A stretch of DNA of 64,000 bases from Bdellovibrionota bacterium. Lineage in GTDB: Bacteria > Bdellovibrionota > Bdellovibrionia > Bdellovibrionales > JAMPXM01. Numbering within the stretch: the stretch's first letter is position 1; the number at the start of each line of letters is the position of its first letter. The stretch lies in NCBI GenBank assembly GCA_963170185.1, contig CAUJGS010000051.1, positions 1-64,000 of the forward strand. The letters are read 5' to 3'. Position numbers and translations under genes: made by a program. This document shows, piece after piece, positions 3,099-22,337 of this stretch. Under the pieces are notes generated by a model. That model searched no databases, was not told the origin of the DNA, and saw nothing but the letters and a program-made list of their open reading frames with translations.

Positions 3099-3127
3099 TT
3101 GCGAAGCCTTCCTTGTTGAGATAGGAC

Positions 3128-3154
3128 AAATGTTGTATATCATATACAACATTT
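3128..3154. promoter_or_regulatory. Perfect 13-1-13 palindrome, predicted NsrR-type operator
   Basis: The half-site AAATGTTGTATAT is followed by one C and its exact reverse complement. It lies between the divergent haemoglobin and nnrS genes. On the minus strand it covers a possible -35 (TTGTAT, 3149-3144) for haemoglobin, with TCCTAT 17 bases on. On the plus strand TACAAT at 3158-3163 could be the nnrS -10. NsrR-family operators are 11-1-11 AT-rich palindromes, and an NsrR-like gene lies 1.2 kb away. The assignment to that regulator is an inference. Confidence 0.7.
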
Positions 3155-3216
3155 AGTTACAATAAATCGTCAATTCCCGATTCACTTAGGATCGCGGACA
3201 CGGGAAAGCGGGAACT

Positions 3217-4380
3217 GTGTCGATGAATCTTGCGCCGTACCAGATTTTCTTTCCGTTTGGAGTATTCAGTGCGCTGATCGCGGTCGGTGTGTGGAATGTG
3301 CAAACTCTGGGTTGGTTTGCTGCGCCAGCGCTGTTTGTGCATTCTCGTCTCATCGCGGGTGGGTTTCTTTGGAGCTTCATCGTGGGTTTTTTGATGACGG
3401 CGATACCACGCATGACAGGCACTGAACCGGCAAAAAGGCTCGAGACACTAGCTGCGATGGTGTTGATGTTGGTTCTGTTCGGAAGTTCGTGGCTGGTGGA
3501 AAGTCAGCCCTTTTATGGCACGGTTGCGGCGATCAACATTTTTTTGGTGTTTTATGCCGGACAAAGGCTCCTACGCAGCGTGAAACGGGTGCCCGTGTTT
3601 TTCTCGCATGTCGGACTTGGCTTGGTGGCGTCGTTATTGGGAGCTTTCTTTTATTTCGAAGGTGACAGTTTCAAAGGCCTTCATCTCTTTCATGTCGGCT
3701 CGGTCTTGCTTTTGGTTCTTGGAATCGGTGCACGATTTTATTCTTTTCTCTCAGGTCTTCCGTCGGACTTTGAATCAGCACCGAGGTGGCAGCATAACAT
3801 CTTCCATGGCCTCGGTGTGCTGACAGGGACTTTCTTGTTCTTAGCGGGCAGTGGGTCTCATTTGGCCTATTTGGGGCTCACCGCGGTGTCTGTGATCTAC
3901 CTCGTCTTTGTCTGGAGAATTCAGCGTCCAGCAAACCGGGTGTCTCCGTTAAGGTGGGCGGTTCAGGCCGTCGCCTGGATGATTCCTCTTAGCTTCGCCT
4001 TGTGTTGGTTTCAGCCGTCGCTGATCGTGACCTGGCTTCATCTGATATTCCTCGGGAGCTTTGCGATGATCACTTTTTCGGTTTCGACCCGAGTGATTCT
4101 CGCACATGGGTCCTATCCCTTGGAAATGGAGCTTAGTTCAAAGGCCTCCGAAACCGATCGCGCCGTCGACACATCCGTGTCGACACCACTCAAATGGCTT
4201 GTCCTTTTCTTGCTGGCGGCACTCGTCGCACGGGTGGGGTACGGGCTCGCGAGCGGGGTCTGGCGAACGGTTTTTTTGCATCTTTCCACGGCGTGTTGGT
4301 TCCTCGCAGTGGGAGGCTGGATGAAAGCGTGTTTTGCTAAAATCTTTGTCTCGGGCCCCCTCAAAAAGCCAGGATGCTGA
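3217..4380 (+). CDS. nnrS: NnrS family haem/copper membrane protein
   Basis: The 387-residue product is almost entirely hydrophobic with about 10-12 membrane segments. It carries the NnrS hallmark near the N-terminus (FVHSRLIAGGFLWSF, then GFLMTAIPRMTG) and further segments such as HVGLGLVASLLGAFF. NnrS proteins bind haem and copper in the inner membrane and protect against nitrosative stress. The GTG at 3217 and the ATG at 3223 are in frame and neither has a strong ribosome site. The gene is followed 18 bp later by the Rrf2 regulator, so the two probably form an operon from the palindromic promoter. Confidence 0.85.
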   Translation: MSMNLAPYQIFFPFGVFSALIAVGVWNVQTLGWFAAPALFVHSRLIAGGFLWSFIVGFLMTAIPRMTGTEPAKRLETLAAMVLMLVLFGSSWLVESQPFYGTVAAINIFLVFYAGQRLLRSVKRVPVFFSHVGLGLVASLLGAFFYFEGDSFKGLHLFHVGSVLLLVLGIGARFYSFLSGLPSDFESAPRWQHNIFHGLGVLTGTFLFLAGSGSHLAYLGLTAVSVIYLVFVWRIQRPANRVSPLRWAVQAVAWMIPLSFALCWFQPSLIVTWLHLIFLGSFAMITFSVSTRVILAHGSYPLEMELSSKASETDRAVDTSVSTPLKWLVLFLLAALVARVGYGLASGVWRTVFLHLSTACWFLAVGGWMKACFAKIFVSGPLKKPGC

Positions 4381-4398
4381 GATGTGCAGGAGGTTGTT

Positions 4399-4869
4399 AT
4401 GTATTTAACCGACCATACAGATTACTCGCTTCGGGTCCTGATGTACCTCAATCAGCGGCGCAACCTCGTGACACTCAATGAACTGGCGGTGAGTTTAAAG
4501 ATCTCAAAAAACAATTTAATCAAGGTCTCTCATCAGCTGGCAAAAATCGGCCTCATCGAAACATCGCGTGGCCGATCGGGCGGAATTTGGATTCATCCAG
4601 GGGCGGGAGAGAAAAGCTTGCGTGAGATCGTTCTTCAGACGGAAGAAAGTTTTCGTCCGGCCGAGTGTTTTTCTGGCCGGAAATGCGAGTGCACGTTTCT
4701 CCCAGCTTGCGGGCTAAAAAAGACGCTTGCCGGGGCATTGACGGCATTCTTGGACGCACTTGCGATGACGACCCTCAACGACGTGACGCCTAGAAGTTTG
4801 GGCGCATCTCTGCAGCCTCGTGCTCGGGGCAATCCAAGCGAAGCTCGCCGTCGGAGAACGCCGAATTGA
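4399..4869 (+). CDS. Rrf2 family regulator, NsrR-like
   Basis: The 156-residue product starts MYLTDHTDYSLRVLMYL with a strong CAGGAGG ribosome site. It has the Rrf2 winged helix (LNELAVSLKISKNNLIKVSHQL, then the RGRSGG wing). Cysteines 90, 96, 98 and 104 lie where NsrR holds its iron-sulfur cluster ligands; C98-x5-C104 matches the last two NsrR cysteines in spacing. NsrR represses NO-detoxification genes until NO attacks the cluster, which fits its position after nnrS. The C-terminal 27 codons run antisense over the end of the convergent marR gene and look low in information, so the gene may have been extended at its 3' end. Confidence 0.8.
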   Translation: MYLTDHTDYSLRVLMYLNQRRNLVTLNELAVSLKISKNNLIKVSHQLAKIGLIETSRGRSGGIWIHPGAGEKSLREIVLQTEESFRPAECFSGRKCECTFLPACGLKKTLAGALTAFLDALAMTTLNDVTPRSLGASLQPRARGNPSEARRRRTPN

Positions 4870-5413
4870 TGTAATCACAGTGATGAGGTTTTTTACTGCC
4901 AGCGTGAGCATTGGGTCGGAAGAAACGGCAATTGGCACACATACGAGGAACAGAAACCGAGCCCTGATCCTGGAGATTTGCGATGATTTTCGAAAGCACT
5001 CGCAAGAGCATGTGTTTCTCCTCGGTGTTGAGGTCGTCGAGCGATTCCTGCAAAGCCGTGGGCCAATCGGCGAGACCGTCTGAGCGTCTTCGACCTTTGG
5101 CGGTCAGTTCCAAGATCGTCGCGCGAGAATCCTCAGGGCTGCGGCGTTTTTTTAGAAGTCCTTTGTCTTGAAGGGCAGTGAGTGAGTCGCTGAGGCTGGC
5201 GCGGCTGACGCCGATCCGCTTGGAGATTTCAGACGGCGACTGAATGCCGTCTTCTACCAGCAGCAGGGCCTTGGCTTGCGTCGGTGACAGCCGGACTTCA
5301 AAGGATTGCTTTTGCTCCTCTGCACGAAACGCCAGGCTGATCTTTGCAAGCCCTGTCAGCAGCTTAGTTTCCAAGTCGCTGTCTTTATGTCGGCCTTTAT
5401 CTCTATCTTCCAA
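4790..5413 (-). CDS. MarR family regulator with C-terminal four-cysteine motif
   Basis: The 207-residue product starts at a TTG with GAGGAG upstream. Residues 40-110 form a MarR winged helix (SPSEISKRIGVSRASLSDSL, then KKRRSPEDSRATILELT). A separate tail contains Cys159, Cys162, Cys179 and Cys195 in CANCRFF, HHCDY and LDCPEH, suggesting a bound metal or Fe-S cluster that could sense redox or metals. It diverges from the two thioredoxin-fold genes at 5582 and 5838, whose promoter region holds a 7-1-7 palindrome. Repression of those genes is a reasonable inference. The 3' end overlaps the convergent Rrf2 gene by 80 bp. Confidence 0.8.
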   Translation of the reverse strand: MEDRDKGRHKDSDLETKLLTGLAKISLAFRAEEQKQSFEVRLSPTQAKALLLVEDGIQSPSEISKRIGVSRASLSDSLTALQDKGLLKKRRSPEDSRATILELTAKGRRRSDGLADWPTALQESLDDLNTEEKHMLLRVLSKIIANLQDQGSVSVPRMCANCRFFRPNAHAGSKKPHHCDYINSAFSDGELRLDCPEHEAAEMRPNF

Positions 5414-5542
5414 AGCGAGAACTCCTCAAACAAGCTTCAGGCTGAGTCGAACTTATGGCAAGAGGCTTGATTTCGCAACACGTCGAATGATTCTTAAAAA
5501 TTTCTAGCATTCGCGGAATGTTCCCGCTACTTATATTAAATA

Positions 5543-5557
5543 GTTAGGACTCCTAAC
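5543..5557. promoter_or_regulatory. 7-1-7 palindrome, candidate MarR operator
   Basis: GTTAGGA, a central C, then TCCTAAC form a perfect inverted repeat 25 bp before the start of the redox gene at 5582 and about 130 bp from the divergent marR start. TATATT at about 5532 could be a -10 element directly upstream. MarR dimers bind short palindromes in divergent promoters, so this is the natural binding site for the adjacent regulator. That link is inferred. Confidence 0.55.
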
Positions 5558-5581
5558 AAAATAAAAAAGGGAGAAAAGAAG

Positions 5582-5815
5582 ATGAAAAAAGCAGTATTTT
5601 ACCATGCAGGATGTCCGGTTTGTGTGTCGGCTGAGAACAAAGTGATCACTTTGATCGATCGCAAGAACTTCGATCTCGAAGTCGTGCATCTCGGCGAAGA
5701 AAAAACACGATTGGCTGAAGCCGAACGAGCGGGAGTCAAATCGGTCCCAGCTCTTGTCTTGGAAGGCGAAGTTCTTCATATCAATTTCGGCGCTTCGCTG
5801 TCAGACCTAAGATAA
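5582..5815 (+). CDS. Small thioredoxin/glutaredoxin-fold protein (CPVC)
   Basis: The 77-residue product starts MKKAVFYHAGCPVC, a beta strand running straight into a CxxC redox motif at Cys11/Cys14, and has the fold's cis-proline region in VKSVPALVL. The size fits glutaredoxin-like or TusD-like small disulfide proteins. It lacks a signal peptide and is expected in the cytoplasm. A clear GGGAGAAAAG ribosome site precedes the ATG. It is followed 22 bp later by a second thioredoxin-fold gene and preceded by a MarR-type palindrome, so it probably forms a redox-responsive two-gene operon. The substrate is unknown. Confidence 0.75.
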   Translation: MKKAVFYHAGCPVCVSAENKVITLIDRKNFDLEVVHLGEEKTRLAEAERAGVKSVPALVLEGEVLHINFGASLSDLR

Positions 5816-5837
5816 CGGATCATCGGAGAGGGTTAGG

Positions 5838-6314
5838 ATGTCAGGGCAGGTTGAGCAGATTGCACCCGAATTAGAGGTTCAAGAGTGGCTAAATGGCGAT
5901 CCGATTCTGCTTTCGCAGTGCAGGGGGCGGGTGGTAGTCGTTTACGCTTTTCAGATGCTCTGTCCCGGTTGTGTGCATCACGCCACTCCGCAAATTTCCC
6001 GATTGCACGAGATGTTTTCAAAGTCCGATGACGCTGTCGTCATCGGACTTCATACGGTCTTTGAGCACCACGATGTCATGGGCCCTGAGGCCTTAAAAGT
6101 TTATATCCACGAAAACCGCCTGAATTTTCCAGTCGCTGTCGATCGGCCGACAGCAGGCAGTCGAATCCCCCGTACGATGGCGACCTACGAGCTCCAAGGC
6201 ACTCCCACAATCGTCTTGATCGATCGGCATGGTCAGTTCCGAGCCAAATACCTCGGCCCCGTCGAAGACATGAGCCTCGGAGTTGCCATCGGTCGCCTGC
6301 TGGCAGAGAGTTAG
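5838..6314 (+). CDS. TlpA/AhpC-like thioredoxin-fold protein (CPGC)
   Basis: The 158-residue product has the TlpA/ResA-like core: VVVYAFQMLCPGCVHHATPQ with the active CxxC, a middle VIGLHTVFEHHD strand and the cis-proline segment LQGTPTIVLIDRHG. No signal peptide is seen, so a cytoplasmic location is expected, unlike classical TlpA. Such proteins act as thiol-disulfide oxidoreductases or peroxidase-like enzymes. It is co-transcribed with the CPVC protein upstream. Its last codons lie in the first copy of a 15-bp tandem repeat. The gene ends about 70 bp before the left end of the integrated element and is chromosomal. Confidence 0.78.
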   Translation: MSGQVEQIAPELEVQEWLNGDPILLSQCRGRVVVVYAFQMLCPGCVHHATPQISRLHEMFSKSDDAVVIGLHTVFEHHDVMGPEALKVYIHENRLNFPVAVDRPTAGSRIPRTMATYELQGTPTIVLIDRHGQFRAKYLGPVEDMSLGVAIGRLLAES

Positions 6315-6345
6315 TTGGCAGAAACTTAGTTGGCAGAGAGTGACG
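6301..6345. repeat. Three tandem copies of a 15-bp unit
   Basis: The units 6301-6315, 6316-6330 and 6331-6345 share TGGCAGA and mostly the rest (TGGCAGAGAGTTAGT; later copies differ at a few bases). The stop codon of the preceding redox gene lies in the first unit, so the array looks like a slippage duplication of the gene end. It is about 40 bp outside the element's left end. Confidence 0.8.
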
Positions 6346-6377
6346 AATTTCGAATTTTGAAGTTTGAGTTGGTGGAG

Positions 6378-6399
6378 GTGGGGCAAGGCTAAGTACACC
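6378..6399. other. attL of the element
   Basis: This holds the chromosomal half-site ending gtggggcaa, the proposed crossover dinucleotide GG at 6387-6388 and the element-internal arm ctaagtacacc. Together with attR it reconstructs a palindromic attP. The exact core could be shifted by a base because the flanking bases also include G. Confidence 0.75.
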
Positions 6400-6427
6400 A
6401 CTTCGGTCGGTCCTGTTACCTCATGAT

Positions 6428-6865
6428 ATTATTCGGTTTTTCTCAAAGTCGCGGGAACAGGTTTTTGAGGTTTCCGCGCCTCTTTACGAAGCTGGTTACA
6501 CTTTACGCGAGATAGAAAGCAAAACAGGTTTTGCGAGAAGCTCTATTCGGGAGGCGCTCACTACCGGGGGATCGACTCTGAGAGTGGGGACTCGAAAGCC
6601 AGCTCAAAAGGACAAGCGCGCCATCAGAGCGAGTTTATCTGTCCAACGCTACGGATACACAAGGCTTGAAGGCCAACTTGTTAAAGACCCGCGAGAATAT
6701 CGGAATGTCCTTCAAATCATAAAAATGTGGCAGTCAGGCAAGAGCCTAACAGCCATCGCAAAGCACTTGAATGAACAAAAAGTGCGGCCTCGTCGCGGCC
6801 AACGCTGGCATCACGAGACAGTCCATCAAATCATTAAACACGAAACCCACGACAAGGAGAAATAG
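6428..6865 (+). CDS. HTH protein with recombinase-like C-terminal domain, non-ATG start
   Basis: The frame reads IRFFSKSREQVFEVSAPLY, then a helix-turn-helix (YTLREIESKTGFARSSIREA). Its last 85 residues resemble the DNA-binding Recombinase domain of large serine recombinases (RYGYTRLEGQLVKDP, IAKHLNEQKVRPRRGQRW). No catalytic serine domain is present, so it may be a recombination directionality or regulatory partner rather than a recombinase. No ATG exists in frame; ATT at 6428 gives the most protein-like start, and GTG at 6584 would lose the HTH. The frame is open leftwards across attL, so its start may differ in the circular form. It is the first gene inside the left end. Confidence 0.6.
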   Translation: MIRFFSKSREQVFEVSAPLYEAGYTLREIESKTGFARSSIREALTTGGSTLRVGTRKPAQKDKRAIRASLSVQRYGYTRLEGQLVKDPREYRNVLQIIKMWQSGKSLTAIAKHLNEQKVRPRRGQRWHHETVHQIIKHETHDKEK

Positions 6866-6867
6866 CC

Positions 6868-7044
6868 ATGATCCCGATCCCATCCAAACTTATTCAAGCA
6901 GCCGTTGCCACAGCTCTTCTCGCCGCTGCGACTGGGCAGCTCCCCAAGTTCATCCGGACCGTGCGTGTGGTGCAGTATCAGCTACTCAAGGACTCACAAG
7001 CGTCCAAGTGGGGCAAACCCATGCTTCTACCAGTAAAGAAGTAG
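6868..7044 (+). CDS. Small protein, 58 residues, one probable membrane segment
   Basis: ATG at 6868 follows a strong AAGGAGA ribosome site 9 bases upstream and lies 2 bp after the preceding gene's stop, so it is very likely translated. The product begins MIPIPSKLIQAAVATALLAA, a short hydrophobic segment, then a basic stretch ending in VKK. It may be a small membrane or membrane-associated protein. I recognise no family. Its place next to the left end, with the zinc-ribbon protein downstream, suggests an accessory function of the element. Confidence 0.6.
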   Translation: MIPIPSKLIQAAVATALLAAATGQLPKFIRTVRVVQYQLLKDSQASKWGKPMLLPVKK

Positions 7045-7310
7045 CAACAGGCAAAAGCGAGGTTTTGCCGGATTCGTTTGGCATCTCCTGACTCTTTAGG
7101 TTGCTGGCGGTCGTGCCGGCAAATTCCCTGATTCGTCCCTCCGCAGCCCTCGCGCCATACGCTAAAGCTCCTGGCACTCCGTCTGCCGCTTTCGCTTGGT
7201 CGTGCCGAGGGACTTTGCCTCCTCTCCCTTTTTCCCCCGTCGGGCTTCCTGGCCGGGGCGAAGAAGCCCTCACAACGAGGGAAAACGACAACGCTAAAGA
7301 GGAGATGACC
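7045..7310. other. GC-rich untranslated segment with hairpin potential
   Basis: This 266-bp stretch is clearly richer in G and C than the genes around it. It holds a 7-bp perfect stem (gggcttc near 7242 with gaagccc near 7264) and pyrimidine-rich runs. The open frame from 7101 is in phase with the next gene, but its composition (Pro, Ala, Ser rich) and the strong ribosome site at 7299-7304 argue that translation begins at 7311. It may be a structured leader. Confidence 0.45.
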
Positions 7311-7748
7311 ATGAAAAACGAAATCCAACAAAAGCTCGAACAAATTGCCCTGAGCCGCTCCATTCCGTTCTGTTACGGATGCTACAAGGAAGCCCCCACT
7401 GGCTGCTGTAGCTCCTGTGGTAGTGACGATCTTATGCGTCTACTGCCCGGAGTCGGATGTGAATGGGGAACAGACTGGGTCATTCGACATATTCTCGAAA
7501 CAGAGCTTGATGCCGTCGATCTCGAAGAGGCGTTTGAGGAGTCTATACGCGAGTTCTATCCCGAAGAAACCACGGTTGGATGGATGACGTTTGATACCAT
7601 CACCCTCATGAAAGAAAATGATCCCGTTGGCTGGCGCTGTGCTCTTGCGGATCACATCTCTAATGAAGAATCTGATGGAACCATCATCTCCTTCGACAAC
7701 GGTGCGACGTACTATCGCACAGAAGACATTGCAGATTTCGTGCAGTGA
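7311..7748 (+). CDS. Conserved mobile-element protein with zinc-ribbon-like motif
   Basis: The 145-residue product begins MKNEIQQKLEQIALSRSIPF and carries CYGC at about 20-23 and CCSSCGSDD shortly after, a likely zinc-binding ribbon. The remainder is acidic with aromatic motifs (GCEWGTDWVI, VGWMTFDTI) and no membrane segment, so a cytoplasmic protein is expected. GAGGAG ends 6 bases before the ATG. Proteins with this arrangement occur in mobile elements of several proteobacteria, as far as I recall, but no function is known to me. Binding nucleic acid or a host factor on entry is a guess from its location. Confidence 0.6.
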   Translation: MKNEIQQKLEQIALSRSIPFCYGCYKEAPTGCCSSCGSDDLMRLLPGVGCEWGTDWVIRHILETELDAVDLEEAFEESIREFYPEETTVGWMTFDTITLMKENDPVGWRCALADHISNEESDGTIISFDNGATYYRTEDIADFVQ

Positions 7749-8049
7749 TTGAAATCTCGCCACTGGCTGTGGAGGCCGGTGGCGATCCATTCATCATCTC
7801 CTTCGGGAACGGGTAGCTCTTAGAAATTCAAGAAAGAAAATCGAATTTTTCTCGCCAAACAGAATTTGTTGGTCGTCTCAATTTAGAAATAGAGGCTGAC
7901 GGCAGCTCACCAAAAGTTCGTCACTTCAAAAAAATAAAACGGCGTTTGTGATTTTCTGAATAAAGATTGCTCCAGAAACCTCCGATTCAGTCCATGTCCC
8001 ACGCATTGCACGAATGACTCTTGTTGAACGTCGGTTGGAGGATTTCAAG
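7749..8049. other. Intergenic region upstream of the giant PKD protein gene
   Basis: About 300 bp without a convincing gene. The first part after the zinc-ribbon gene repeats a short stretch (catctccttcg at 7687 and 7796), which may be a local duplication. The rest is AT-rich and should hold the promoter of the gene starting at 8050, but no clear -35/-10 pair can be picked. Confidence 0.4.
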
Positions 8050-11000
8050 ATGGCAGACATTTATAAGCTCGCAGCTATGCGTTCTCGTATATCTAAACTT
8101 GCTCTTCTGTTTGTTACCACAAGCCTTGCCGTTTTCTCCTCCGTAAATGCCGCGCCTGTTGGCAACGAAGATCAGATCACTCTATTGGGGCCAGAAACTT
8201 TTCATGCACCACTGATTGGAACCAAAACCACAACCAACACATTTGTGTCGACTCCACAGACTGGCTATCTCTATTTAAAAAACGGATCCGGAGAAGACCT
8301 CTCTCCGAAAGAATGTAATGGCTTGCCGTTACTTAAACGCCTAGCCTGTGCCGCACTGAATGTGGCCAATCTTGTTCGCCTGGAACTTGAGCGCCCTTCC
8401 TCTGTCGAAATCCGCCTCAACGGGTCGGTGGTCATAAGCAGTCTTCCAAAGACCACAAACAACCTACTGCTTTCAATTCCTCTTTTGAACCAAAACCAAC
8501 TTTCAGTAAAAATCAAAGGTTCGATTTTTTCCTCGGTCACGGTCGCGGTTCGCGCATCGTCGCGTACCAACCTACTCCCTCTTGCAAGAATTAACGTGGA
8601 TCGAACCGAAATCATTCTCGGGCAAAGCATCAGTCTTTCGGGCCAGGCTTCACAGGCTCTCAATGAAGGTGCGACTATCGTGAGATATGAGTGGACGCTT
8701 CCAAATGGAAATACCTTTGAAGGCATGAACCAAGTCGTCACATTCTCACAGGCAGGTTTGAAGACGATTTCTCTAAAGGTGACGGACTCCCTCGGTCTTG
8801 TATCACTGCCTTCTGAAATCCAAGTCAACGTGCGTGCCCTCGAAAAGCCCATCGCTCGAATGGGGATGTCCGTCGTGAGTCCAATTGTACCGACCACCAT
8901 TCAACTGGATAGTTCGACAAGCTCAACAAGTAACCCCGGCGCAAGCATCATTGGAACACGCTGGCACATCACCGCACCAAACGGTACAGACTTTTGGCAG
9001 CATGACATCGAAGCTCCCGTCATCAACATTGATACAATGGATACCTATACGATTTCCCTTGAAGTGCGAGATAGCTACAATCAAATTTCGGATCCTGTAG
9101 TTCACACATTCACAGCCATAAATACTCAACCGGTCGCTCGCATCGTACAAGTCGAACCATCAACCGAGCCTGCGTTTGTTACTTTCGATGGCTCACAAAG
9201 TTTCGATCCCGATGGGCATCTACTTACAAACTGGGTTTGGACATTTTCAGACGGCGTCGAGCTCTACGGCCCCAATCCGCAGCGGACTTTCTTTTTCCCC
9301 GGCGAATACACCGCGACCTTGAGTGTATTGGACGAACATGGTGCCTGGTCTGAGCCGGCATCCATTCAGGTACTCGTGAACCCAAACTCCGCCCCCACAT
9401 CAGTTATCTCGGTGAGTGAAGTGCCTGGAAATAAATTCCAGAGGTTTTTGGACGGTAAGGGGAGCTTCGATGTGGATGGTACCGTAACTCGGTACTACTG
9501 GTGGATACTCGGGTTAGAAGGCATTATCGGAGAGGGGCCCGAAATCACTTATACATTTCCTAATACTGGTGAATACGATGTCTATCTCGACGTATTCGAT
9601 GACAGTGGACTAAGAGGAACAAGCTCAGTCAGAGTTTCCATCCCCGCTACATCTGTTCCGCCGATAGCTAGAATACAGGCGACACCTAGTTTAACCGAAG
9701 CATTTGAGATTCACTTTTCTGGCTCTGACTCGACGGATGACGGACAAATCAGAAGTTATCGCTGGGATTTCGGAGATGGCAACATCCAGTACGGAGAAAA
9801 TACATCACACACTTTCCCAAGCGCGGGATTTCACGACATCCATCTTATGGTCACCGACGATGAAAACCTGCTCGGCTTTCAAACCATCACGATACAGGTA
9901 TCCGATCATCGCGATCGGCCGCCTCTCGCGATCATATCCGGGAAGCTAGATGAAAACCATTTGGACGAAGAACTTAACCCGACAGATTTTTCCATCAATC
10001 GACTGCCGGCATATGTTGTTCTATCAGCACACGCTTCGGACATCTCACCTTCTGCACTGAGCGGCGCTAAATACAGTTGGCAAGCCGGTGAACTAGGAAC
10101 ATTTGAAGGCGACAATGTTCGCCTCCGTGTGAACCGAACAGGAGAGTTTCCGGTTACATTGCAAGTTATCGACGGGAATGGGCGATCATCACAGTCCACG
10201 ACCATGATTAAGTCCCATGCAGAGAGCTGTTTTCAGTACGATGGAGACAACATTTGCCCCTTTGTCATAGGTAATCGCCCCGACATTATTGATCTTACTA
10301 ACCCGACGGTAGTTTTCTCGACTAATCAATCGGGCGAACTGGATCAGATTTCAGTCAATAACTCCACATCGGTGACACTCGAATCCTCGTCGGGCACAAC
10401 CGTAGATCTTTCAGCCGTCGCGACAGCGAACGGACCAAATATCGAAATTCTATCTTCAGAAATTGAAAGTCGTGTCCAGGGTCTTGAGGAACCATTTATC
10501 CTACGAATAGGAGTCGTCGCTTCGAGCGCTGAAGGAGTTGTCGTTGGCGGCCTAAAAGATATCCGAATAGCGAAAAGACGTGTTTCCGTGAGAGTCCCTC
10601 AGAATGCCACGAATCTGGTTGTGGTCGGATCGGCTTCAGGAATTGAGATGCGAATCAAAGAACCCAATACGAATTTCGATCTCGGAGGACTTCCTTTCGA
10701 CACATATGCCGTGTCGGTTCTCACGGAAAGCGGCGACCTTAGTAAATCATTCGATTTCAATTCGACATCTTCCGATCTCTTTGATTTGACCATACCCAGC
10801 ATCCCGGCATCTATTCAGATGAGTTCAAAGTCTTCTCCAACTGGACTGAATACTCAGCAGAGCGTTGGCTCCGAATATCAGTATCGATTTACAAATGTCA
10901 TCCCATTCAGTTCAAGCATGCCCGGGTACCCGCTATCGAACGATGGCTTCTCAAACAAATCTCTAAGTGGCCCAATGCAATTGCTTTCCGCTGAAGAGCC

Positions 11001-13200
11001 TCCCGCACCATTTACATCTTGGTGCGGCCAGGTCGCTCCGTTTCCAATCATTCGTCGCGGCCCAAATTTGATTCCCGTTGATCGGACATATGGGAAGTTC
11101 CTATCGAACAACCTAAATGGAGTCGAAACTGATGCCAGAACATTTACTCCCGTCGCGGCTCGTTCGGCGAAGGAAGGGAAAATTGCTGGCTATTGTCAGT
11201 TCCAATCTCCGACATACATGGGTGCCCAGTTCTATGAATGGTTGCACGCTGCCAATCGCCGATGCTGTCGGCCAGAACATGGCTCAAATTGTTTGAGCGA
11301 CCAGACAGCTAACTATAATGCTCTAACAGCCGGCCGAGTACTCGAGTCTGCAAACATTCAATTCGTAGCCGAATTTAAAGACGAGGGAGATTCGGCAAAA
11401 CCCATTAGATCCTGGTCAATCACGACATCTTTTCAGGCCGCCGCTCAACAAGCCGGATACAGCAGGGCCACGATGTCATCAACATTGGGGCTTCCAGCAG
11501 ATGGCAACGTCCCAGGCTGGGCCGTACCATTCCGTTTTGAGATTCCAATTCCTACTGACATGGTTACGCCTAATGTACGCGTTAACGTAAACTCGATTTA
11601 CCCGAGAGAATATCCTAGAGAGTTCGGATCGCACTTCTACTATTGCTGGATCGAAACCGGCCCCACTGAAGTTCTTTTTGATCTAAAAATTGGTGCTCAA
11701 CATAACACCACGACCGATTTCACAAACGTCGCGCAGAACAATGCGCGAAATTCCATGCGAGACGAACGCCTGATTCCTGTCTCAAAAGACAATAGATCCA
11801 ACTTCAACTTCTTCGGAACATCGTCGGAAAAGTGGCAGTATTCCCCTCTCTTCAGGCTGTCGGCTCGTGGAACATTCAATCAGGCCGAATTTAATTCGGC
11901 AAACGTGTCTCTGCTTGTCCCGAAGGTGACAGTAGTTGTAGCCGGCGACTCAACCGAGTATGACGTTGGCGGACAGGTATCCATCTCAAATTACAGTTGT
12001 CCAACCTCCGGAAACTGCTACGGACAATTGAATTTTGATGGTGGTCGAATTTTCGAAAATGTCCCGCAGTTTGCTATTGCAAATCGAAAGCTCGCGCAAA
12101 CTCCAACGATTCCCGGAGTAACATTGCGGTACAAGGTTTTGATTTCCAACAATGGCAAAACTTATGACCCAGAAGACACTTCGAATCACAAACTCAACTA
12201 TGATCTCGCACCAGAAACTCCCGCTATCGCCGGAGTGGATCGTCTAAAAAACTCTGACTCCTACATGTGTGGCTGGGGCTATAGTGAACAATGGTCGACC
12301 TATGGAAAACTAAAAATGGCTGAGTTTATAAAGGACGGCCTGATGAACGTCGTCCGCAACTCTGGCAACTGGTTGATGTGCAATGATGGAGCCTATCCAT
12401 TTGGTGGCTCATTCGACCCACACGGCGCGCATCAACTTGGTCAAAACCTCGACGTACGGCCGTTCAATTCAGATTTGAACTTCGCGAACACGTTTCACCA
12501 AAGCAGGGCGGCAAAGAAGGCTGCTGCATACTCTCTCCTTCGAGCGTACCGAGTAGCAATCGACTCATGGCCGTGCACCGGAGATGAGAATACTGAGTGT
12601 GTCACCCCAATTGGCGCTGTCCGCAAGAGCCAAGAATACTGTTGGAAGAATCTTGATAGAGATGAGGCGTTCATTGGAACCAACTGTCCGCTGCCGGTGA
12701 TTCCATCCTCAGTGCTACAGCACTACACTCATGCCACGCGTCGTCAGGCAATTGATGATCTTAGCAAATATATAGATGGTATGCGAAACGCCATCGAGGT
12801 GTTATTGCATCCGAACACCCCAAAAAGACCATCAAGACTGATACATTCTGACGGCGCATTAGATGACGTGGCTTATTTGTATGCAAACCAACAATACATC
12901 GAACCACAAGGTGTCTCGTGGAACTCGAGCCTGATTTTCGATGGCGAACTGTTTTATCGAATAGGTCCCTCCATTTTGACTCCAGGCCCAGCAATACTTA
13001 GACGCGTGCAGATATATCGAAATGGTGCACCGATTCTCTCAAATAGTTGCAGTTCGAGCGATAGTTACTGGAGAATGGGAAGTGGATGCCATCGGGTACT
13101 GCCAAAGACCACTGTCGAAGGGGTTTATGATGCTAATTTCCTACACTTTGCGCCAATCAGCGGCCACTTGGACCACATTCACATTGAGGTTTACGACTAG
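8050..13200 (+). CDS. Giant secreted PKD-repeat protein with C-terminal LAS-type metallopeptidase signature
   Basis: The 1716-residue product has an N-terminal signal (ISKLALLFVTTSLAVFSSVNA) and about five PKD-like Ig domains between residues 175 and 620, with motifs such as FDPDGH, YRWDFGDGN and YDVYLDVFD. A long middle region follows, and the end reads HQLGQNLDVR (His1461, Asp1468) and, at the C-terminus, LDHIHIEVYD (His1709, His1711). HxxxxxxD plus HxH is the zinc site of LAS peptidases (M15 and MepA), which cut peptidoglycan stem peptides. The 240-residue gap between the motifs is longer than usual, so an insertion is likely. GGAGG before 8050 favours this start over 8014. It is element cargo, probably exported to act on cell walls or surfaces. 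Confidence 0.7.
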   Translation: MADIYKLAAMRSRISKLALLFVTTSLAVFSSVNAAPVGNEDQITLLGPETFHAPLIGTKTTTNTFVSTPQTGYLYLKNGSGEDLSPKECNGLPLLKRLACAALNVANLVRLELERPSSVEIRLNGSVVISSLPKTTNNLLLSIPLLNQNQLSVKIKGSIFSSVTVAVRASSRTNLLPLARINVDRTEIILGQSISLSGQASQALNEGATIVRYEWTLPNGNTFEGMNQVVTFSQAGLKTISLKVTDSLGLVSLPSEIQVNVRALEKPIARMGMSVVSPIVPTTIQLDSSTSSTSNPGASIIGTRWHITAPNGTDFWQHDIEAPVINIDTMDTYTISLEVRDSYNQISDPVVHTFTAINTQPVARIVQVEPSTEPAFVTFDGSQSFDPDGHLLTNWVWTFSDGVELYGPNPQRTFFFPGEYTATLSVLDEHGAWSEPASIQVLVNPNSAPTSVISVSEVPGNKFQRFLDGKGSFDVDGTVTRYYWWILGLEGIIGEGPEITYTFPNTGEYDVYLDVFDDSGLRGTSSVRVSIPATSVPPIARIQATPSLTEAFEIHFSGSDSTDDGQIRSYRWDFGDGNIQYGENTSHTFPSAGFHDIHLMVTDDENLLGFQTITIQVSDHRDRPPLAIISGKLDENHLDEELNPTDFSINRLPAYVVLSAHASDISPSALSGAKYSWQAGELGTFEGDNVRLRVNRTGEFPVTLQVIDGNGRSSQSTTMIKSHAESCFQYDGDNICPFVIGNRPDIIDLTNPTVVFSTNQSGELDQISVNNSTSVTLESSSGTTVDLSAVATANGPNIEILSSEIESRVQGLEEPFILRIGVVASSAEGVVVGGLKDIRIAKRRVSVRVPQNATNLVVVGSASGIEMRIKEPNTNFDLGGLPFDTYAVSVLTESGDLSKSFDFNSTSSDLFDLTIPSIPASIQMSSKSSPTGLNTQQSVGSEYQYRFTNVIPFSSSMPGYPLSNDGFSNKSLSGPMQLLSAEEPPAPFTSWCGQVAPFPIIRRGPNLIPVDRTYGKFLSNNLNGVETDARTFTPVAARSAKEGKIAGYCQFQSPTYMGAQFYEWLHAANRRCCRPEHGSNCLSDQTANYNALTAGRVLESANIQFVAEFKDEGDSAKPIRSWSITTSFQAAAQQAGYSRATMSSTLGLPADGNVPGWAVPFRFEIPIPTDMVTPNVRVNVNSIYPREYPREFGSHFYYCWIETGPTEVLFDLKIGAQHNTTTDFTNVAQNNARNSMRDERLIPVSKDNRSNFNFFGTSSEKWQYSPLFRLSARGTFNQAEFNSANVSLLVPKVTVVVAGDSTEYDVGGQVSISNYSCPTSGNCYGQLNFDGGRIFENVPQFAIANRKLAQTPTIPGVTLRYKVLISNNGKTYDPEDTSNHKLNYDLAPETPAIAGVDRLKNSDSYMCGWGYSEQWSTYGKLKMAEFIKDGLMNVVRNSGNWLMCNDGAYPFGGSFDPHGAHQLGQNLDVRPFNSDLNFANTFHQSRAAKKAAAYSLLRAYRVAIDSWPCTGDENTECVTPIGAVRKSQEYCWKNLDRDEAFIGTNCPLPVIPSSVLQHYTHATRRQAIDDLSKYIDGMRNAIEVLLHPNTPKRPSRLIHSDGALDDVAYLYANQQYIEPQGVSWNSSLIFDGELFYRIGPSILTPGPAILRRVQIYRNGAPILSNSCSSSDSYWRMGSGCHRVLPKTTVEGVYDANFLHFAPISGHLDHIHIEVYD

Positions 13201-13672
13201 TATATTTCTGATTTTTTCTGTTCTTGGATTGTACCCGAGTATCGCAGACGGCAAGAGTTTGAAATTCAATGAGGATGCAATGTGCATCCCAGCGGGAGAC
13301 CCAATTTGGGAAACTTTGGGGGTCGTTGGTGATGTTGTCGACTTTGTAGTAAAAGAGAAATTTACTCTTGGTCCAGCAGAGATTGTTCCAGGGTGCAGGA
13401 TTGGCTTTGGGTACAGTTCGGAACTTACGAGTCTAAACCCTAAAGAAATCGCAGAAAAGCGGGTTGTTACATCAATAACAAACTGTGAATTCAAAATGGC
13501 CGGAGTTAGCATCCAGTTTGCTGTACTTGATCTGGAAGGGTGTTTGGACGGATACCAGTACGTCACCTCTCCAAAAAATATTTGCAAGGCTAAGAAAGGG
13601 AGTTCCGGTACAGGCCGATACTTTTTCGAAGGTGGATTTTTACGCTGTGACCACAAACCCAAGCAACCTTAG
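13130..13672 (+). CDS. Small exported cysteine-containing protein
   Basis: The reading frame overlaps the end of the PKD protein gene by about 70 bp, so translation is probably coupled. Starts at ATG 13127/13130 or TTG 13184 are possible; the TTG gives a compact signal peptide (RFTTSIFLIFSVLGLYPSIA), but no strong ribosome site is seen for any. The mature part of about 150 residues has six cysteines (MCIPAG, PGCRIG, TNCEF, EGCLD, NICKA, RCDHK), which suggests disulfides in the periplasm or outside the cell. I do not recognise a family. It may act with or protect against the upstream metallopeptidase, on position alone. Confidence 0.55.
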   Translation: MLISYTLRQSAATWTTFTLRFTTSIFLIFSVLGLYPSIADGKSLKFNEDAMCIPAGDPIWETLGVVGDVVDFVVKEKFTLGPAEIVPGCRIGFGYSSELTSLNPKEIAEKRVVTSITNCEFKMAGVSIQFAVLDLEGCLDGYQYVTSPKNICKAKKGSSGTGRYFFEGGFLRCDHKPKQP

Positions 13673-13781
13673 ATTACATAAGGTAAATCACAGAAAAGAA
13701 AAATGAAGAGGTCATCTGGATGAAGTGGAATATGCCTTCATAGGGTCTCCAGGAGTTTTTCCGTCATGATCGTGGGCCAAG

Positions 13782-14957
13782 TTAGCTACGCACTTTTGAC
13801 ATAAAACCAATGACAGACGCTAGAGCAAATGTGGCGGCCGAAATCCCCCAGGCCGTTTGCACCGATAGTTGATTGATGAAAGTCGCGCTTACGAAATAGC
13901 TGACGGCAAAGATCGCTTCGGTAGAAAAGTTCATTACAGACAAGCCCGTGGTACGAACTCGTTCAGGGAACTCTTCGTGCTGAATCGCTTGCACGGCGGG
14001 AAGAAACGCTCCGCGCGCTCCGGCCATCGTCCACACGCCAAACAGGGCTAGCCAAACATTTTCAGCTAATACGCAGATCAAAGACCCTAAAGCCATGCAA
14101 GCTAATGAGTATGCGATTCTCGGCATGTACGAAACGGGTCGTTCTTTCGATGAGAAAAAATGATTCACCACATATCGAAGCAAATACGAACCTGTTGCTA
14201 AGGCGGAAAACCAGCGGGCATCGCCACCTCCCAAGTCTTTAATCCACGGCAGCCACAGGACTCCGAGGATAGTTTCAACTTGGTGAAGGATGCGGATCGG
14301 TAGGAGTGTCTTGAGCTGCATTGATTGACGGATGGCCGACAGGCCTTCCCGAGTGCGAACGATAAACTCCTTTCTCGTTGAATGGAATTCTCGTTCAGGT
14401 GGCAGCTCTTGAATTAGGAGGGCGATGAATAGCGCGGCTAGAAGATAAAAGGCTCCTGCAATGAGAAACGATCCTCTTCCGAACCACTCGCTCAGAAATC
14501 CAACCGAGACGCTGGCGACAATGTAGCTTGCAACGGCGATTTTTTCGGTCACTGAGAAATAGCGATTTGAATTGAAGCCCTCGCCATCTTGATCTTTGTT
14601 CATACCAAACAAAAGTGCTGACAAGGCTCCGGAGACGTAGCTTGAGCCAAGCCCGTAGAGGGCAAACCCGGAAAGAACCTGCCACGTTTCGGTCGATCCA
14701 ATCCCAAGGATAACAAGCGAGAGGGTCTGCAGCAGGCCGCCGATGACTGCTGACTTTCTTGCGCCGAAAAGATCAGCCCAAACGCCTGTTGGGATTTCTG
14801 CGATAGCGAGAATTGAGTAAAGGACCCCAAAGCCAAGCGAGATCACTTGAAAGCTGACGCCAGCATCGTGGAGTACGGGGGATGCTGCGATGGTGAAGAC
14901 CATCGCAGCAAATCCTCTTAACCCGGTGACTACCTGAGCTTTGGTGAGTGCTCTCAT
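13782..14957 (-). CDS. Major facilitator superfamily transporter
   Basis: The 391-residue product has about 12 hydrophobic segments and the MFS loop 2-3 region (ADLFGARKSAVIGG). There is a GLYGLGSSYVSGALSALLFG helix and a C-terminal half typical of drug or metabolite exporters. Its ATG overlaps the stop of the transmembrane regulator gene by 4 bp, so it is the third gene of a minus-strand operon with the XRE and DUF4423-like regulators. The substrate cannot be read from the sequence. Efflux of a signal or inhibitor sensed by the regulator is an inference from the operon. Confidence 0.8.
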   Translation of the reverse strand: MRALTKAQVVTGLRGFAAMVFTIAASPVLHDAGVSFQVISLGFGVLYSILAIAEIPTGVWADLFGARKSAVIGGLLQTLSLVILGIGSTETWQVLSGFALYGLGSSYVSGALSALLFGMNKDQDGEGFNSNRYFSVTEKIAVASYIVASVSVGFLSEWFGRGSFLIAGAFYLLAALFIALLIQELPPEREFHSTRKEFIVRTREGLSAIRQSMQLKTLLPIRILHQVETILGVLWLPWIKDLGGGDARWFSALATGSYLLRYVVNHFFSSKERPVSYMPRIAYSLACMALGSLICVLAENVWLALFGVWTMAGARGAFLPAVQAIQHEEFPERVRTTGLSVMNFSTEAIFAVSYFVSATFINQLSVQTAWGISAATFALASVIGFMSKVRS

Positions 14958-16075
14958 TCAGCGGACTTGCTTTCAATTTGAAGTCTTTGAATTAAAAGGT
15001 CGGCTTGTTTTTCGGCTTCAGTGCATAGCGGATGACCACTGTCACCACAGGCACTCATGAAGTCGATCAACTTTTTCAGCTTGCATGTCCGTTTTGATGA
15101 AATCGGCAAATATTGTCCACCGTATTCAAAGAAGCACTCCGGCCCCGTGGCTGAAGGATCATGCCCTCCGCCTCCCGGAGGAGTTGGGTCATGTCCGCCG
15201 CCGCCGGTTTGACCAGGAGGGACTACGGAATCCAAAGAGGGCATCGCTATCGAAGCATAGCTGCTCACCATAGTTGTCGGATCGTTGCCGCCGCCTACAT
15301 AGCGTGCTGTGTTCAGGAAATCCAAAGTCGATATCGGGTTGACCCTGAACATTGTGATTATTGGATCATTGCCACCTGCATAAGACTTGCTTGAAATCCC
15401 CAGTACCATTGCAAAGGCAAAAAGAACTGCGAACGTCATGTCGTAGAACTTCATTCGACGAAACTTCAGTCCGTCGATAGATTTCTTCTTTGCATTTTCG
15501 TTGGCGAACTCTTTTGCTTTGATTTTGATGGATTTGAACATTTCAAGAAGCTCATCGCTTTGTTCCTTCGAGTAAAAGGCATCCATCGAGAAGTACGTCT
15601 TGTCCTTCCAGAACTCGGACTTTCCGGTAAACTCCTTCATGATCTCAAAGACTTTCGAGTCTTTTCTGGCTTCAAGGTCTCCGTCGTATCTGTAATGAGA
15701 GTAGTTAATGTAGTTGTCTGGGAAATTTGAGTAGTATGCACCATCTGGCGTAATGTGAATCAAGCCCACCTTGAGAAAGCGGTCCAAAACAGATTGTGCC
15801 TTCTTTGGCTCAGGTTCGGCAAACTGCCGTTTGATGTCATTCAGAGTCATCGGTTGAACGCGAGTGGCATAGAAAAGCGTGAGTGTGTACTCGTCCACAT
15901 GAATTTCTTCAATCTGCTCAGGTGAAAGCCGAATACTCGGTACCTCTGTCGAATTGACCTTGGCGGCGTCCGAATTCTTGGAATCGAGTCCAGATTTTGA
16001 GACGTCGGAAATCATGGCGCGCTTGTCATGTGATCCGCGCGCATTCTGTACACTGCTATTTTTTTCTATTTCCAT
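14954..16075 (-). CDS. DUF4423/TIGR02147-like regulator fused to a transmembrane and external domain
   Basis: The 373-residue product has three parts. Residues 55-210 resemble the second half of TIGR02147/DUF4423 regulators (VLDRFLKVGLIHITPDGAYY, then TYFSMDAFYSKEQSDELLEM). One membrane helix follows at about 215-235 (MTFAVLFAFAMVLGISSKSY). The C-terminal 135 residues carry four Gly/Asp-Pro motifs (AGGNDP, GGGNDP, GGGGHDP twice) and four cysteines (ECFF, RTCKL, SACGD, PLCTE). This layout suits a one-component receptor with a cytoplasmic DNA-binding part and an external sensor. The TIGR02147 HTH half is missing and may be supplied by the XRE gene just upstream. DNA binding by this half alone is uncertain. 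Confidence 0.6.
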   Translation of the reverse strand: MEIEKNSSVQNARGSHDKRAMISDVSKSGLDSKNSDAAKVNSTEVPSIRLSPEQIEEIHVDEYTLTLFYATRVQPMTLNDIKRQFAEPEPKKAQSVLDRFLKVGLIHITPDGAYYSNFPDNYINYSHYRYDGDLEARKDSKVFEIMKEFTGKSEFWKDKTYFSMDAFYSKEQSDELLEMFKSIKIKAKEFANENAKKKSIDGLKFRRMKFYDMTFAVLFAFAMVLGISSKSYAGGNDPIITMFRVNPISTLDFLNTARYVGGGNDPTTMVSSYASIAMPSLDSVVPPGQTGGGGHDPTPPGGGGHDPSATGPECFFEYGGQYLPISSKRTCKLKKLIDFMSACGDSGHPLCTEAEKQADLLIQRLQIESKSAE

Positions 16076-16087
16076 AGAACCCCCTCA

Positions 16088-16546
16088 CTATTCAGATTCA
16101 TTTTTAAAAACTCGTTTCTTCTCTGCAAAATAACTGCGCGGCCTTCTGTCCTCTTGTGCGAACTGCGTCAAAAAGCCTACCAGGTTTTCTAGATGCGCCT
16201 TGCGACTTGGTGCTGCGTCTTTAGATGCAAAGTAAACCGATGCCTCGATGGTTCGTAGGATTCGGCTATAGTCGGCAAAGGCTATTTCCCTGAGTGCTTC
16301 GATGACTTTCATTTCATCCAGATACACGAACGAGTCAGAGCCCTTTATCAACATATCAAGAGTGATACCTAAAGCATGAGCGATACGAACGAGTTCGCTT
16401 GCCGTCGCTTCACGTTTTCCAGTTTCAATTTTCGAGATCGAAGTACGAGGCAGCTCGGTCCTTTCATCAAGCTCGGCTTGCTTCAAGTTCCTTGCGATGC
16501 GCAGGGTACGAATTCGATCTGCAATAAACTTCGGATCGCTCTGCAT
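16088..16546 (-). CDS. XRE family transcription regulator
   Basis: The 152-residue product has a standard XRE helix-turn-helix at residues 9-65 (IRTLRIARNLKQAELDERTE, then RTSISKIETGKREAT). An 85-residue helical tail follows, which may dimerise or contact the membrane regulator encoded next. It is the first gene of a minus-strand operon ending in the MFS transporter; 12 bp separate it from the second gene. An 18-bp site upstream (16559-16576) recurs at 16683-16700, and both are candidates for its operator. Autoregulation is likely but inferred. Confidence 0.85.
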   Translation of the reverse strand: MQSDPKFIADRIRTLRIARNLKQAELDERTELPRTSISKIETGKREATASELVRIAHALGITLDMLIKGSDSFVYLDEMKVIEALREIAFADYSRILRTIEASVYFASKDAAPSRKAHLENLVGFLTQFAQEDRRPRSYFAEKKRVFKNESE

Positions 16547-16558
16547 GGGGCGGTGAAT

Positions 16559-16576
16559 AGCTAAAATGGCGAATTA
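16559..16576. promoter_or_regulatory. Repeated 18-bp site A, candidate XRE operator
   Basis: The site agctaaaatggcgaatta matches 15 of 18 bases of site B at 16683-16700 in the same orientation. It lies 13-30 bp upstream of the XRE start codon, where bound repressor would block its transcription or translation. TAGCTA-like cores also occur at about 16645. Confidence 0.5.
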
Positions 16577-16665
16577 ATGTCAATAAAAAAGATTTGACGA
16601 AACAGAAAGTAACCCCGTATACGCCACAGAAGCCGTTTTAAATAAGCTATTTTGGAGGTGGATAC

Positions 16666-16869
16666 ATGAGGCAGCATGAATTAGCTAATTTAGCGAATTA
16701 TAAGAGGGGGAATGCGCAAGATACCAAAAACAAGCTGCTTTCAAAGGCTTTGGATACCCTGGCCGAATTGTTGGGCATCGAGTTCGGAAGTCTTACGGTT
16801 CACTTCCATAAAGGAAAGTGGAGCCCTCGAATCGAGATCAAAAAAACCGTCATTCAGGACGTTGAGTAA
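16666..16869 (+). CDS. Small protein of unknown function, 67 residues
   Basis: ATG at 16666 follows TTGGAGGTGG, a strong ribosome site, and diverges from the XRE operon. The product begins MRQHELANLANYKRGNAQDT and continues with a helix (LLSKALDTLAELLGIEFGSL) and a basic, aromatic end (HFHKGKWSPRIEIKK). It is soluble by composition. No family is recognised. Codons 6-12 overlap the second copy of the 18-bp repeat, so its expression is probably under the same regulator as the XRE operon. It precedes the sigma-like and secretion genes and may be a small control protein. Confidence 0.6.
   Translation: MRQHELANLANYKRGNAQDTKNKLLSKALDTLAELLGIEFGSLTVHFHKGKWSPRIEIKKTVIQDVE
16683..16700. promoter_or_regulatory. 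Repeated 18-bp site B, candidate XRE operator
   Basis: The second copy, agctaatttagcgaatta, lies within the first codons of the gene at 16666 and differs from site A at three positions. Paired sites 124 bp apart on either side of a divergent promoter would allow control of both directions. Confidence 0.45.
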
Positions 16870-17010
16870 CTGAAATCAGCCATACCCGAGACAAAGGGCG
16901 GCAACCGAAAGTCTGGGAAGAACACGACCATTCGAGATGGATGTTTTCCCGTGAAGTTGGCATCACGTCGAAACAAGGATCGACACGCGCAACTTCCGAA
17001 AGAGGTCCAT

Positions 17011-17592
17011 ATGGACTCTAAAGTTTTGCCCGCTCAGATTACTGAGCAAGAATCAATCATCGTTCAACCAAAGGCCCCTTGGCTTCAACAAAATGGCAAG
17101 CCTGTACCGGATGAGCTTCTCAAAACTCTGGCTCCGTCATGGAGCGCAGAGGTTTGGGAAAAGTACCTAGTCTGGTTTGAAAACCTAAATGGTTCTCGTG
17201 GAGAGTCCCTAGTTATTCCCAAACGGTATGATCGGATCTGCGAATCCGAAGAAGAATCCATCTTCAGTGCGTTTGCGCAAACCGATGCTGATGATGAACT
17301 TAAATCCATTGTCAGCAGATTTCTCTTAAGACTCACTCCTCAGCAGCGACGTGTGGTCGAAATGATTTTCTGGGAAGGTCGGAGCGAGCGTTACGTCGCT
17401 CAATCTCTGGGGATCAATCAGCAGCCAGTGAATCGCCTGAAGAAGCGAGCACTGAGTAAAATCAAGCACTTAATCTCGGAGGGTGTCAGCTCCCGTATTA
17501 TGAGAGGGGAACAATCCTCGCTCATCAACAAAGGGGACGCCGATGCAGAGATTCTTTTGTTGGCTGAAAGCCATTTGGCAGAGGCTGGCTAA
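17011..17592 (+). CDS. Sigma-70 region 4-like transcription factor
   Basis: The 193-residue product starts at ATG 17011 behind GAAAGAGGT. Its C-terminal half contains LTPQQRRVVEMIFWEGRSE, then VAQSLGINQQPVNRLKKRA, a sigma-70 region 4.2-type helix-turn-helix. The N-terminal 100 residues do not look like sigma region 2, so this may be a sigma-like activator rather than a full sigma factor. It is the first of three overlapping genes (17011, 17543, 17671) just ahead of the secretion operon, so control of transfer gene expression is a reasonable inference. Confidence 0.7.
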   Translation: MDSKVLPAQITEQESIIVQPKAPWLQQNGKPVPDELLKTLAPSWSAEVWEKYLVWFENLNGSRGESLVIPKRYDRICESEEESIFSAFAQTDADDELKSIVSRFLLRLTPQQRRVVEMIFWEGRSERYVAQSLGINQQPVNRLKKRALSKIKHLISEGVSSRIMRGEQSSLINKGDADAEILLLAESHLAEAG

Positions 17593-17674
17593 AGAAAGTG
17601 ACCCAACGATTGAAGACTGGCAGCGACTTGAGTTTCGAGATCATCAGCCCACAAAAAACCGGGAATATGAATGA
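17543..17674 (+). CDS. Small 43-residue protein between two sigma-like genes
   Basis: ATG 17543 lies inside the end of the sigma-like gene, with AAGGGGAC about 6 bases upstream, and the frame ends at a TGA overlapping the next ATG at 17671 by 4 bp. The product begins MQRFFCWLKAIWQRLAKESD and continues with acidic and basic residues. Overlaps at both ends are typical of coupled translation and support a real gene despite its length. The N-terminal part is amphipathic with several tryptophans and could contact a membrane or a partner protein. Unknown function. Confidence 0.5.
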   Translation: MQRFFCWLKAIWQRLAKESDPTIEDWQRLEFRDHQPTKNREYE

Positions 17675-17952
17675 AGCCGGAGAACTTAAAGTCGCCAGCC
17701 GATCTTTTACCCGCAAGAGATTCTGAGAGAGAAAAGAACATCCAAAAACTCTACGAACTGATGCCAGACCTTGGCGATAAAGCGATCCTAGCGATCTACT
17801 TCCGATTCTGGGAGCAACTTCTAATCGAAGAAATTGCCAAGATCCTCGGCCTGTCGTGGAAGGAAACAGACCAGCTTATCGAAGAGTCCATTAAGGAACT
17901 TCGACAAGGATTTTTAGCGAACCAATTGAGTACGCAGCTCATGGCTGCTTAG
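17671..17952 (+). CDS. Second sigma region 4-like HTH protein
   Basis: The 93-residue product has an HTH resembling region 4 (LLIEEIAKILGLSWKETDQL, then IEESIKELRQGFL). An N-terminal linker precedes it, and there is no region 2. It is translationally coupled to the 43-residue gene and ends 39 bp before the next gene. With the larger sigma-like protein upstream it could form a heteromeric activator, as split sigma systems do; this is an inference from size and order. No RNA polymerase core-binding part is visible. Confidence 0.6.
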   Translation: MKPENLKSPADLLPARDSEREKNIQKLYELMPDLGDKAILAIYFRFWEQLLIEEIAKILGLSWKETDQLIEESIKELRQGFLANQLSTQLMAA

Positions 17953-17991
17953 GAACATAAAACGAATTTTTAGAAACGAGAGGTTTTTCCT

Positions 17992-18432
17992 ATGGAAAAG
18001 CAGACGAATACTATTGCAAAAAATGGCAACGAATCGAACCAATATTTCCGCTTCCAGGTCTTTCAAGGAACCAAAGATCCAAGTGGCGGGGTTAAGAAAA
18101 CAAAAAGCGTAGGTATGGCTTACCTCAAGGAAGGCCAAAGCATTTTGAGTCTCAGGCTATGGACCTTTTCTTGGGAGCGCTACTTCATTCTTCCGCATAA
18201 AACGGAACCATCGAAGTATCTCGTGATGACACGCGAGCCGAATCGTAGCTCTCATGCGAAGACAAAATATTTTTGGAACATCGTTGGAAATGGGACTGTC
18301 GACTCTGTTCACGGCTTCATCGAATTGGACTTCGACCTATTGAATAAGCCCATCTATGTCAGCATTCATCCGGAGCCTTCGGCTTATACAAGTGACTTGC
18401 CTGAGCCAGAGTCCATTGAGCAAGCGGCATAG
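17992..18432 (+). CDS. Conserved-looking protein of unknown function in the transfer region
   Basis: The 146-residue product starts MEKQTNTIAKNGNESNQYFR behind a GAGAGG ribosome site. It is rich in aromatic and basic residues (LRLWTFSWERYFILP, TKYFWNIVGNGTVD), without a signal peptide or membrane helix, and ends in an acidic tail. It could be a single-strand DNA-binding-like beta protein, but no motif proves it. It is followed 65 bp later by virB2, so it is probably expressed with the secretion genes. Confidence 0.6.
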   Translation: MEKQTNTIAKNGNESNQYFRFQVFQGTKDPSGGVKKTKSVGMAYLKEGQSILSLRLWTFSWERYFILPHKTEPSKYLVMTREPNRSSHAKTKYFWNIVGNGTVDSVHGFIELDFDLLNKPIYVSIHPEPSAYTSDLPEPESIEQAA

Positions 18433-18497
18433 ATTTCAAGAAATATCTGCGCATACATTTGAGATTTTTTTGGAATCTTCAATAGGAGTTCTAAGAA

Positions 18498-18785: not shown

Positions 18786-18797
18786 GGACGGTGAACA

Positions 18798-22334: not shown

Positions 22335-22337
22335 ATT

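Follow-up and report, generated by a model that had tools for sequence, protein, structure and literature searches.

The closest experimentally tested precedent for the locus described here comes from the same phylum: the exported protein Bd3460, whose gene lies downstream of that of the D,D-endopeptidase Bd3459, inhibits this enzyme and shields the producing cell, and the pair was presented as the first case of self-protection in a predatory bacterium (PMC4686830). The closest predicted precedent is provided by MepA-like effectors of the T6SS, the WHIX effectors, a MepA-like D,D-peptidase domain being a predicted antibacterial toxin in these proteins (13 in the published table; PMC12135965). 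Relations between effectors and immunity genes are also documented in V. cholerae, where effector-displacement arrays retain immunity genes (PMC5361080).

The window, i.e. the whole stretch of 64,000 nucleotides that was analysed, carries a gene encoding a giant protein with PKD repeats and a C-terminal MepA-like domain, directly followed by a gene encoding a small partner. With Bd3459, Bd0816 and Bd3460, this locus shares an exported wall endopeptidase, an adjoining gene for an exported inhibitor and the phylum, the inhibitor role being here a prediction; however, Bd3460 is an ankyrin protein, whereas the window partner belongs to no recognised family (PMC4686830). The WHIX effectors are delivered by a T6SS (PMC12135965), whereas the window protein displays instead a signal peptide and a PKD scaffold, and no T6SS parts were seen next to its gene. 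With polymorphic toxins and effector-immunity arrays, the locus and its relatives share a large scaffold, a C-terminal enzyme, an adjoining putative immunity gene, truncated cassettes and arrays of orphan partners with a 3' remnant of the effector gene (PMC3482391, PMC5361080). Unlike classical polymorphic toxins, the scaffold was seen with the M74-like domain only: in five genomes of the phylum, the long centre precedes this domain wherever the end of the gene is visible, and no swap for another C-terminal toxin was seen, though the contig stops within the G103 hit and the profile of the centre is weak outside the family.

The reading that we favour, with moderate confidence, is a two-gene effector-immunity module, made of an exported peptidoglycan endopeptidase and its cognate immunity protein and directed against rivals or prey. 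A sequence-only reading of this DNA had proposed, among other roles, an effector that cuts the walls of prey or of rivals; this is still the best class of reading, and it is strengthened by the conserved partner, the cassette insertion and the arrays of partners.

Architecture of the gene and of its peptidase domain

The ORF 8014-13200 (+) encodes 1728 residues from its first ATG. A start at 8050, giving 1716 residues, is the better one because of the GGAGG at 8036-8040, so that the length given in the sequence-only reading is confirmed. Residue numbers below are those of the 1728-residue form, from which 12 must be subtracted for the 1716-residue form; the His1461, Asp1468 and His1709 highlighted earlier are thus H1473, D1480 and H1721. 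The five PKD-like domains previously announced are also found by Pfam, as five stretches with each of PF18911 (E 1.2e-56) and PF00801 (E 3.8e-37). The beta-rich domain that precedes them is N-terminal in the G071 homologue too, as indicated by blastp (Table 1).

Table 1. Position of the features of the peptidase-partner locus and of the surrounding region in the window
Feature	Coordinates	Strand	Basis or remark
Strain-specific region holding the gene	1989..33851	.	congener comparison; right end = tRNA-Ala
PKD / M74-like peptidase gene	8050..13200	+	ORF scan, GGAGG, Pfam; in-frame ATG upstream at 8014
Predicted signal peptide, MADIYKLAAMRSRISKLALLFVTTSLAVFSSVNA/APV	8050..8151	+	inferred by eye from sequence
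N-terminal beta-rich domain	8149..8583	+	blastp G071 20-728 vs window 29-732, E 3.6e-21
Five PKD domains	8584..9933	+	Pfam
Long centre	9934..12213	+	profile match in five phylum genomes
C-terminal M74/MepA-like peptidase domain	12280..13197	+	profile, hhalign, family alignment
Motif 1, H1470-x-x-H1473-x-x-G-x-x-x-D1480	12421..12453	+	aligned with MepA
Fast-changing inter-motif segment, residues 1601-1700	12814..13113	+	48% identity to second copy, dN 0.51
Motif 2, H1718-x-x-H1721-x-H1723	13165..13182	+	sequence; family alignment
Partner gene, small exported protein, probable immunity protein	13184..13672	+	TTG start overlaps peptidase stop
Conjugation cluster: TraC/VirB4-like, VirB6-, VirB9-, VirB10-like, coupling protein	18991..28021	+	
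Serine recombinase	32140..34020	+	ORF runs over tRNA-Ala 33852-33927 (-)

The C-terminal domain carries HxxHxxGxxxD (1470-1480) and HxxHxH (1718-1723), which together correspond to the full motif set of MepA. Shuffling the whole protein 20,000 times produced both motifs together in 3 cases, and 20,000 shuffles of its C-terminal 334 residues produced them in none. The LAS signature noticed earlier, HxxxxxxD plus HxH, is present, but the first His of HxxH and that of HxxHxH had been missed. All six motif residues belong to the thirteen columns that are invariant in ten family members. With MepA of E. coli (M74, PF03411; PDB 1TZP and 1U10), the domain also shares the D...P.GG signature located ahead of motif 1 and a profile match over the first half. 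It differs by its position at the end of a 1716-residue PKD protein, by the partner gene and by the distance between the motifs: D1480 and H1718 are 238 residues apart, versus 83-131 in 25 ordinary M74 proteins of the order. The step between the motifs that had been read as a 240-residue insertion is therefore real, but its excess over ordinary M74 proteins is about 105-155 residues only.

Among PDB entries, a profile built from six relatives matches only MepA 1TZP significantly (E 0.001, aligned over motif 1), the single sequence retrieving only chance matches to CEACAM (E 0.2 or worse). In hhalign comparisons with 21 ordinary M74 domains of the same order and with three VanY-type (M15) domains, the probability reaches 97.5% (E 6e-12) for M74 and 0.2% for the three M15 sequences. 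Membership of M15 (VanY/VanX) is rejected by this value and by a second motif that is HxxHxH and not (E/D)xxH; of the M15/MepA assignment made initially, the MepA part stands and the M15 part falls. PF03411 scores 13.7 bits with the whole protein and 18.9 bits with the domain alone, below the gathering cut-off of 25, and its matches to five of six family members are all sub-threshold. The M74 profile match spans the first half only, the HxxHxH half being assigned by its motif, and AlphaFold gave no usable model, either for the C-terminal domain (five sequences, pLDDT 30) or for that of the L025 member (four sequences, pLDDT 33). Since the score is below the cut-off, the match stops before the inserted part and no usable model is available, the domain is, as far as its sequence tells, M74/MepA-like rather than a member of M74.

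Judging from its motifs, the enzyme would be of the zinc type, whereas Bd3459 is a serine-type D,D-endopeptidase. Following the logic of LAS enzymes, we take His1709 (1716-residue form) to be the general base, the zinc ligands being presumably His1461, Asp1468 and, as the third, His1711, as in MepA and LytM.

The partner gene, the second copy and the spread of the family

The partner ORF, which the sequence-only reading had overlooked and which is also open from an ATG at 13022, encodes a protein devoid of any Pfam, NCBIfam or PDB match. A partner-type ORF starts at the peptidase stop or overlaps it in all ten Bdellovibrionota family loci whose downstream side is visible; these ORFs are on the same strand and encode about 150-340 residues with an N-terminal hydrophobic stretch. 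By a simple heuristic scan that scored export by hydrophobicity alone and not by a signal-peptide predictor, a comparable downstream ORF was found for 1 of 25 ordinary M74 genes; three more M74 loci were left uncounted, the hydrophobic part being there an upstream extension of a conserved gene with no such start in relatives. Within the order, the profile of the window-type partner matches only beside the peptidases of its own genome, and partners from different genera display no significant homology (hhalign below 4%). As these partners are not detectably related, the case for immunity is built on position, arrays and divergence, which indicate that the small exported partner is probably the antidote of the peptidase encoded upstream.

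The same genome carries, on contig C104, a second copy of the peptidase gene, whose product is 76% identical to that of the window. There, three partners come after the peptidase gene, the second of them truncated at its N-terminus, and a 3' remnant of a peptidase, 55 residues long, lies between the second and the third, an organization resembling the effector-displacement arrays of V. cholerae (PMC5361080). The genes flanking this 6.9 kb insert adjoin in all four congeners (4/4), and the insert therefore consists of the peptidase and its partners alone. A congener, G001, harbours three tandem peptidase-partner cassettes, two of which lack the N-terminal part; as these two are devoid of a signal peptide and one of them also of the first part of motif 1, they may be decayed. 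Orphan partners or 3' cassette remnants are thus present in both the C104 array and the G001 cassettes. As the cassette is inserted at different places in the genome, a weapon paired with its immunity seems more likely than a component of the DNA-transfer machine next to the window copy.

The long form was found in 6 of 369 genomes of the phylum and is lacking from closely related ones; the G103 member is probably split over two contigs, and another homologue occurs in Bdellovibrio sp. CG22. No relatives were found in plasmid, phage and viral collections. Some loci show particularities of their own. At L025 (780-9868), the peptidase-partner pair is flanked by several genes encoding proteins with hexapeptide-type repeats (NAxVxGxA), and the peptidase protein itself starts with such repeats. 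In G060, one homologue is made of two consecutive ORFs of 390 and 795 residues (L010:4348-7916), and its sister copy (L011) is a single ORF of 1147 residues.

The same chemistry could be turned towards prey: the peptidase would then be a predation enzyme of the Bdellovibrio type that remodels the wall of captured prey, its partner ensuring self-protection as Bd3460 does. This phylum is one of predators, and a D,D-endopeptidase gene with that of a periplasmic inhibitor downstream is a precedent demonstrated by experiment (PMC4686830). Neither an ordinary M74 gene (at E 1e-8) nor a VanY gene was found in the genome, though this is equally true of the congeners devoid of the long form. The very patchy distribution of the long form, lacking even from close relatives, and the partner arrays and cassette insertion, which suit competition better, make this explanation unlikely, although it survives better than the others.

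It is somewhat less probable that the partner is a chaperone, a secretion adaptor or a required subunit of the enzyme rather than its inhibitor. In that case, too, the two genes would be expected to be strictly coupled at the stop codon, and the partner is of no known family; however, several partners per enzyme in arrays, and partners kept beside a peptidase remnant, are unexpected for a subunit.

Divergence between the copies and the strain-specific region

The window and C104 proteins are about 66-96% identical over most of their length, with dN of 0.08-0.19. Residues 1601-1700 fall to 48% identity (dN 0.51) and the partners to 59% (dN 0.35), dN alone being used for the fast-changing parts as synonymous sites are saturated there. 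This fast change of both the inter-motif segment and the partner is consistent with a surface of recognition between enzyme and partner. It is no proof of contact by itself, since the linker made of residues 941-1010 diverges almost as much (dN 0.47); the signal region is also fast-changing between the two copies. Elsewhere in the domain, dN/dS is 0.16 (residues 1401-1500) and 0.09 (residues 1501-1600), indicating purifying selection between copies. A pseudogene is rejected because both copies are full length and under such selection.

Adhesins and secreted proteases often contain PKD domains. A secreted adhesin or protein-cleaving protease whose LAS domain is degenerate would also agree with the failure of AlphaFold to give a usable fold; the invariance of all six motif residues and the purifying selection on the domain speak against degeneration, and this explanation appears improbable.

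In a congener, the genes located left of ~1990 and right of ~34050 are only ~1.5 kb apart, with a different gene between them; the ~32 kb that hold the peptidase gene, the conjugation cluster and the serine recombinase are therefore strain-specific, and the claim that the gene is mobile holds in outline. No direct repeats of at least 14 bases were found with the tRNA-Ala region, and the left end of the element is not fixed. Both here and in a congener (L098), the DNA adjoining the 3' side of the tRNA-Ala is variable. Three other genes of the region deserve mention: that of a Sigma-70/ECF-like factor shortly before the conjugation cluster (16951-17592), that of a 463-residue PIN_4-domain protein, which follows the coupling-protein gene in the conjugation element (28521-29912), and that of a candidate relaxosome protein with a weak match to the MobC family (30031-30795, E 3e-5). 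The peptidase gene may travel with the conjugative element.

Among the loci read, transfer genes lie near only the window copy and G001. Linkage is thus not constant: in the stretches read, it is lacking at the C104, L025, G060 and G103 loci, no recognisable transfer gene being present in the few kb read around the last three. That the peptidase stands in for VirB1 as the wall-opening enzyme of the adjoining conjugation system, as the sequence-only reading had also suggested, would agree with the 5.8 kb that separate it from the TraC-like gene inside one strain-specific region, and with the G001 cassettes, seen by eye near a coupling-protein-like and an integrase-like ORF, but is implausible to the point of rejection, since the module also inserts with its partners alone, as in C104, and mostly lies away from any transfer gene seen, VirB1 enzymes moreover being unlike it in size, PKD array and partner arrays.

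Proposed function and significance of the putative effector-immunity module

If the locus is an effector-immunity module, as we favour, the large protein would be a substrate of Sec export, and the beta-rich N-terminus, the PKD array and the centre would together form a long surface stalk or adhesive scaffold carrying, at the C-terminal end, a MepA-type (M74) zinc D,D-endopeptidase. This enzyme would cleave cross-links in the peptidoglycan of other bacteria, whether rivals or prey. The partner, retained in the periplasm of the producer, would bind the enzyme at the divergent segment by the active site and block its activity, so that the producer's own wall would be spared. Genomes would acquire and lose the module as a cassette, and arrays in which former partner genes are retained would protect against variant enzymes.

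More largely, we give an even chance to the view that these proteins make up a previously undescribed family of giant, Sec-exported antibacterial endopeptidases of predatory Bdellovibrionota, whose fast-evolving periplasmic immunity proteins are gathered in arrays. They would serve as weapons of predator against predator or kin and would be spread by cassettes, sometimes on conjugative elements. About ten ready peptidase-partner pairs are available for direct tests of binding specificity. If the Bdellovibrionota do possess such an enzyme-antidote cassette, it would mean that predators also carry interchangeable weapons, perhaps used against one another.
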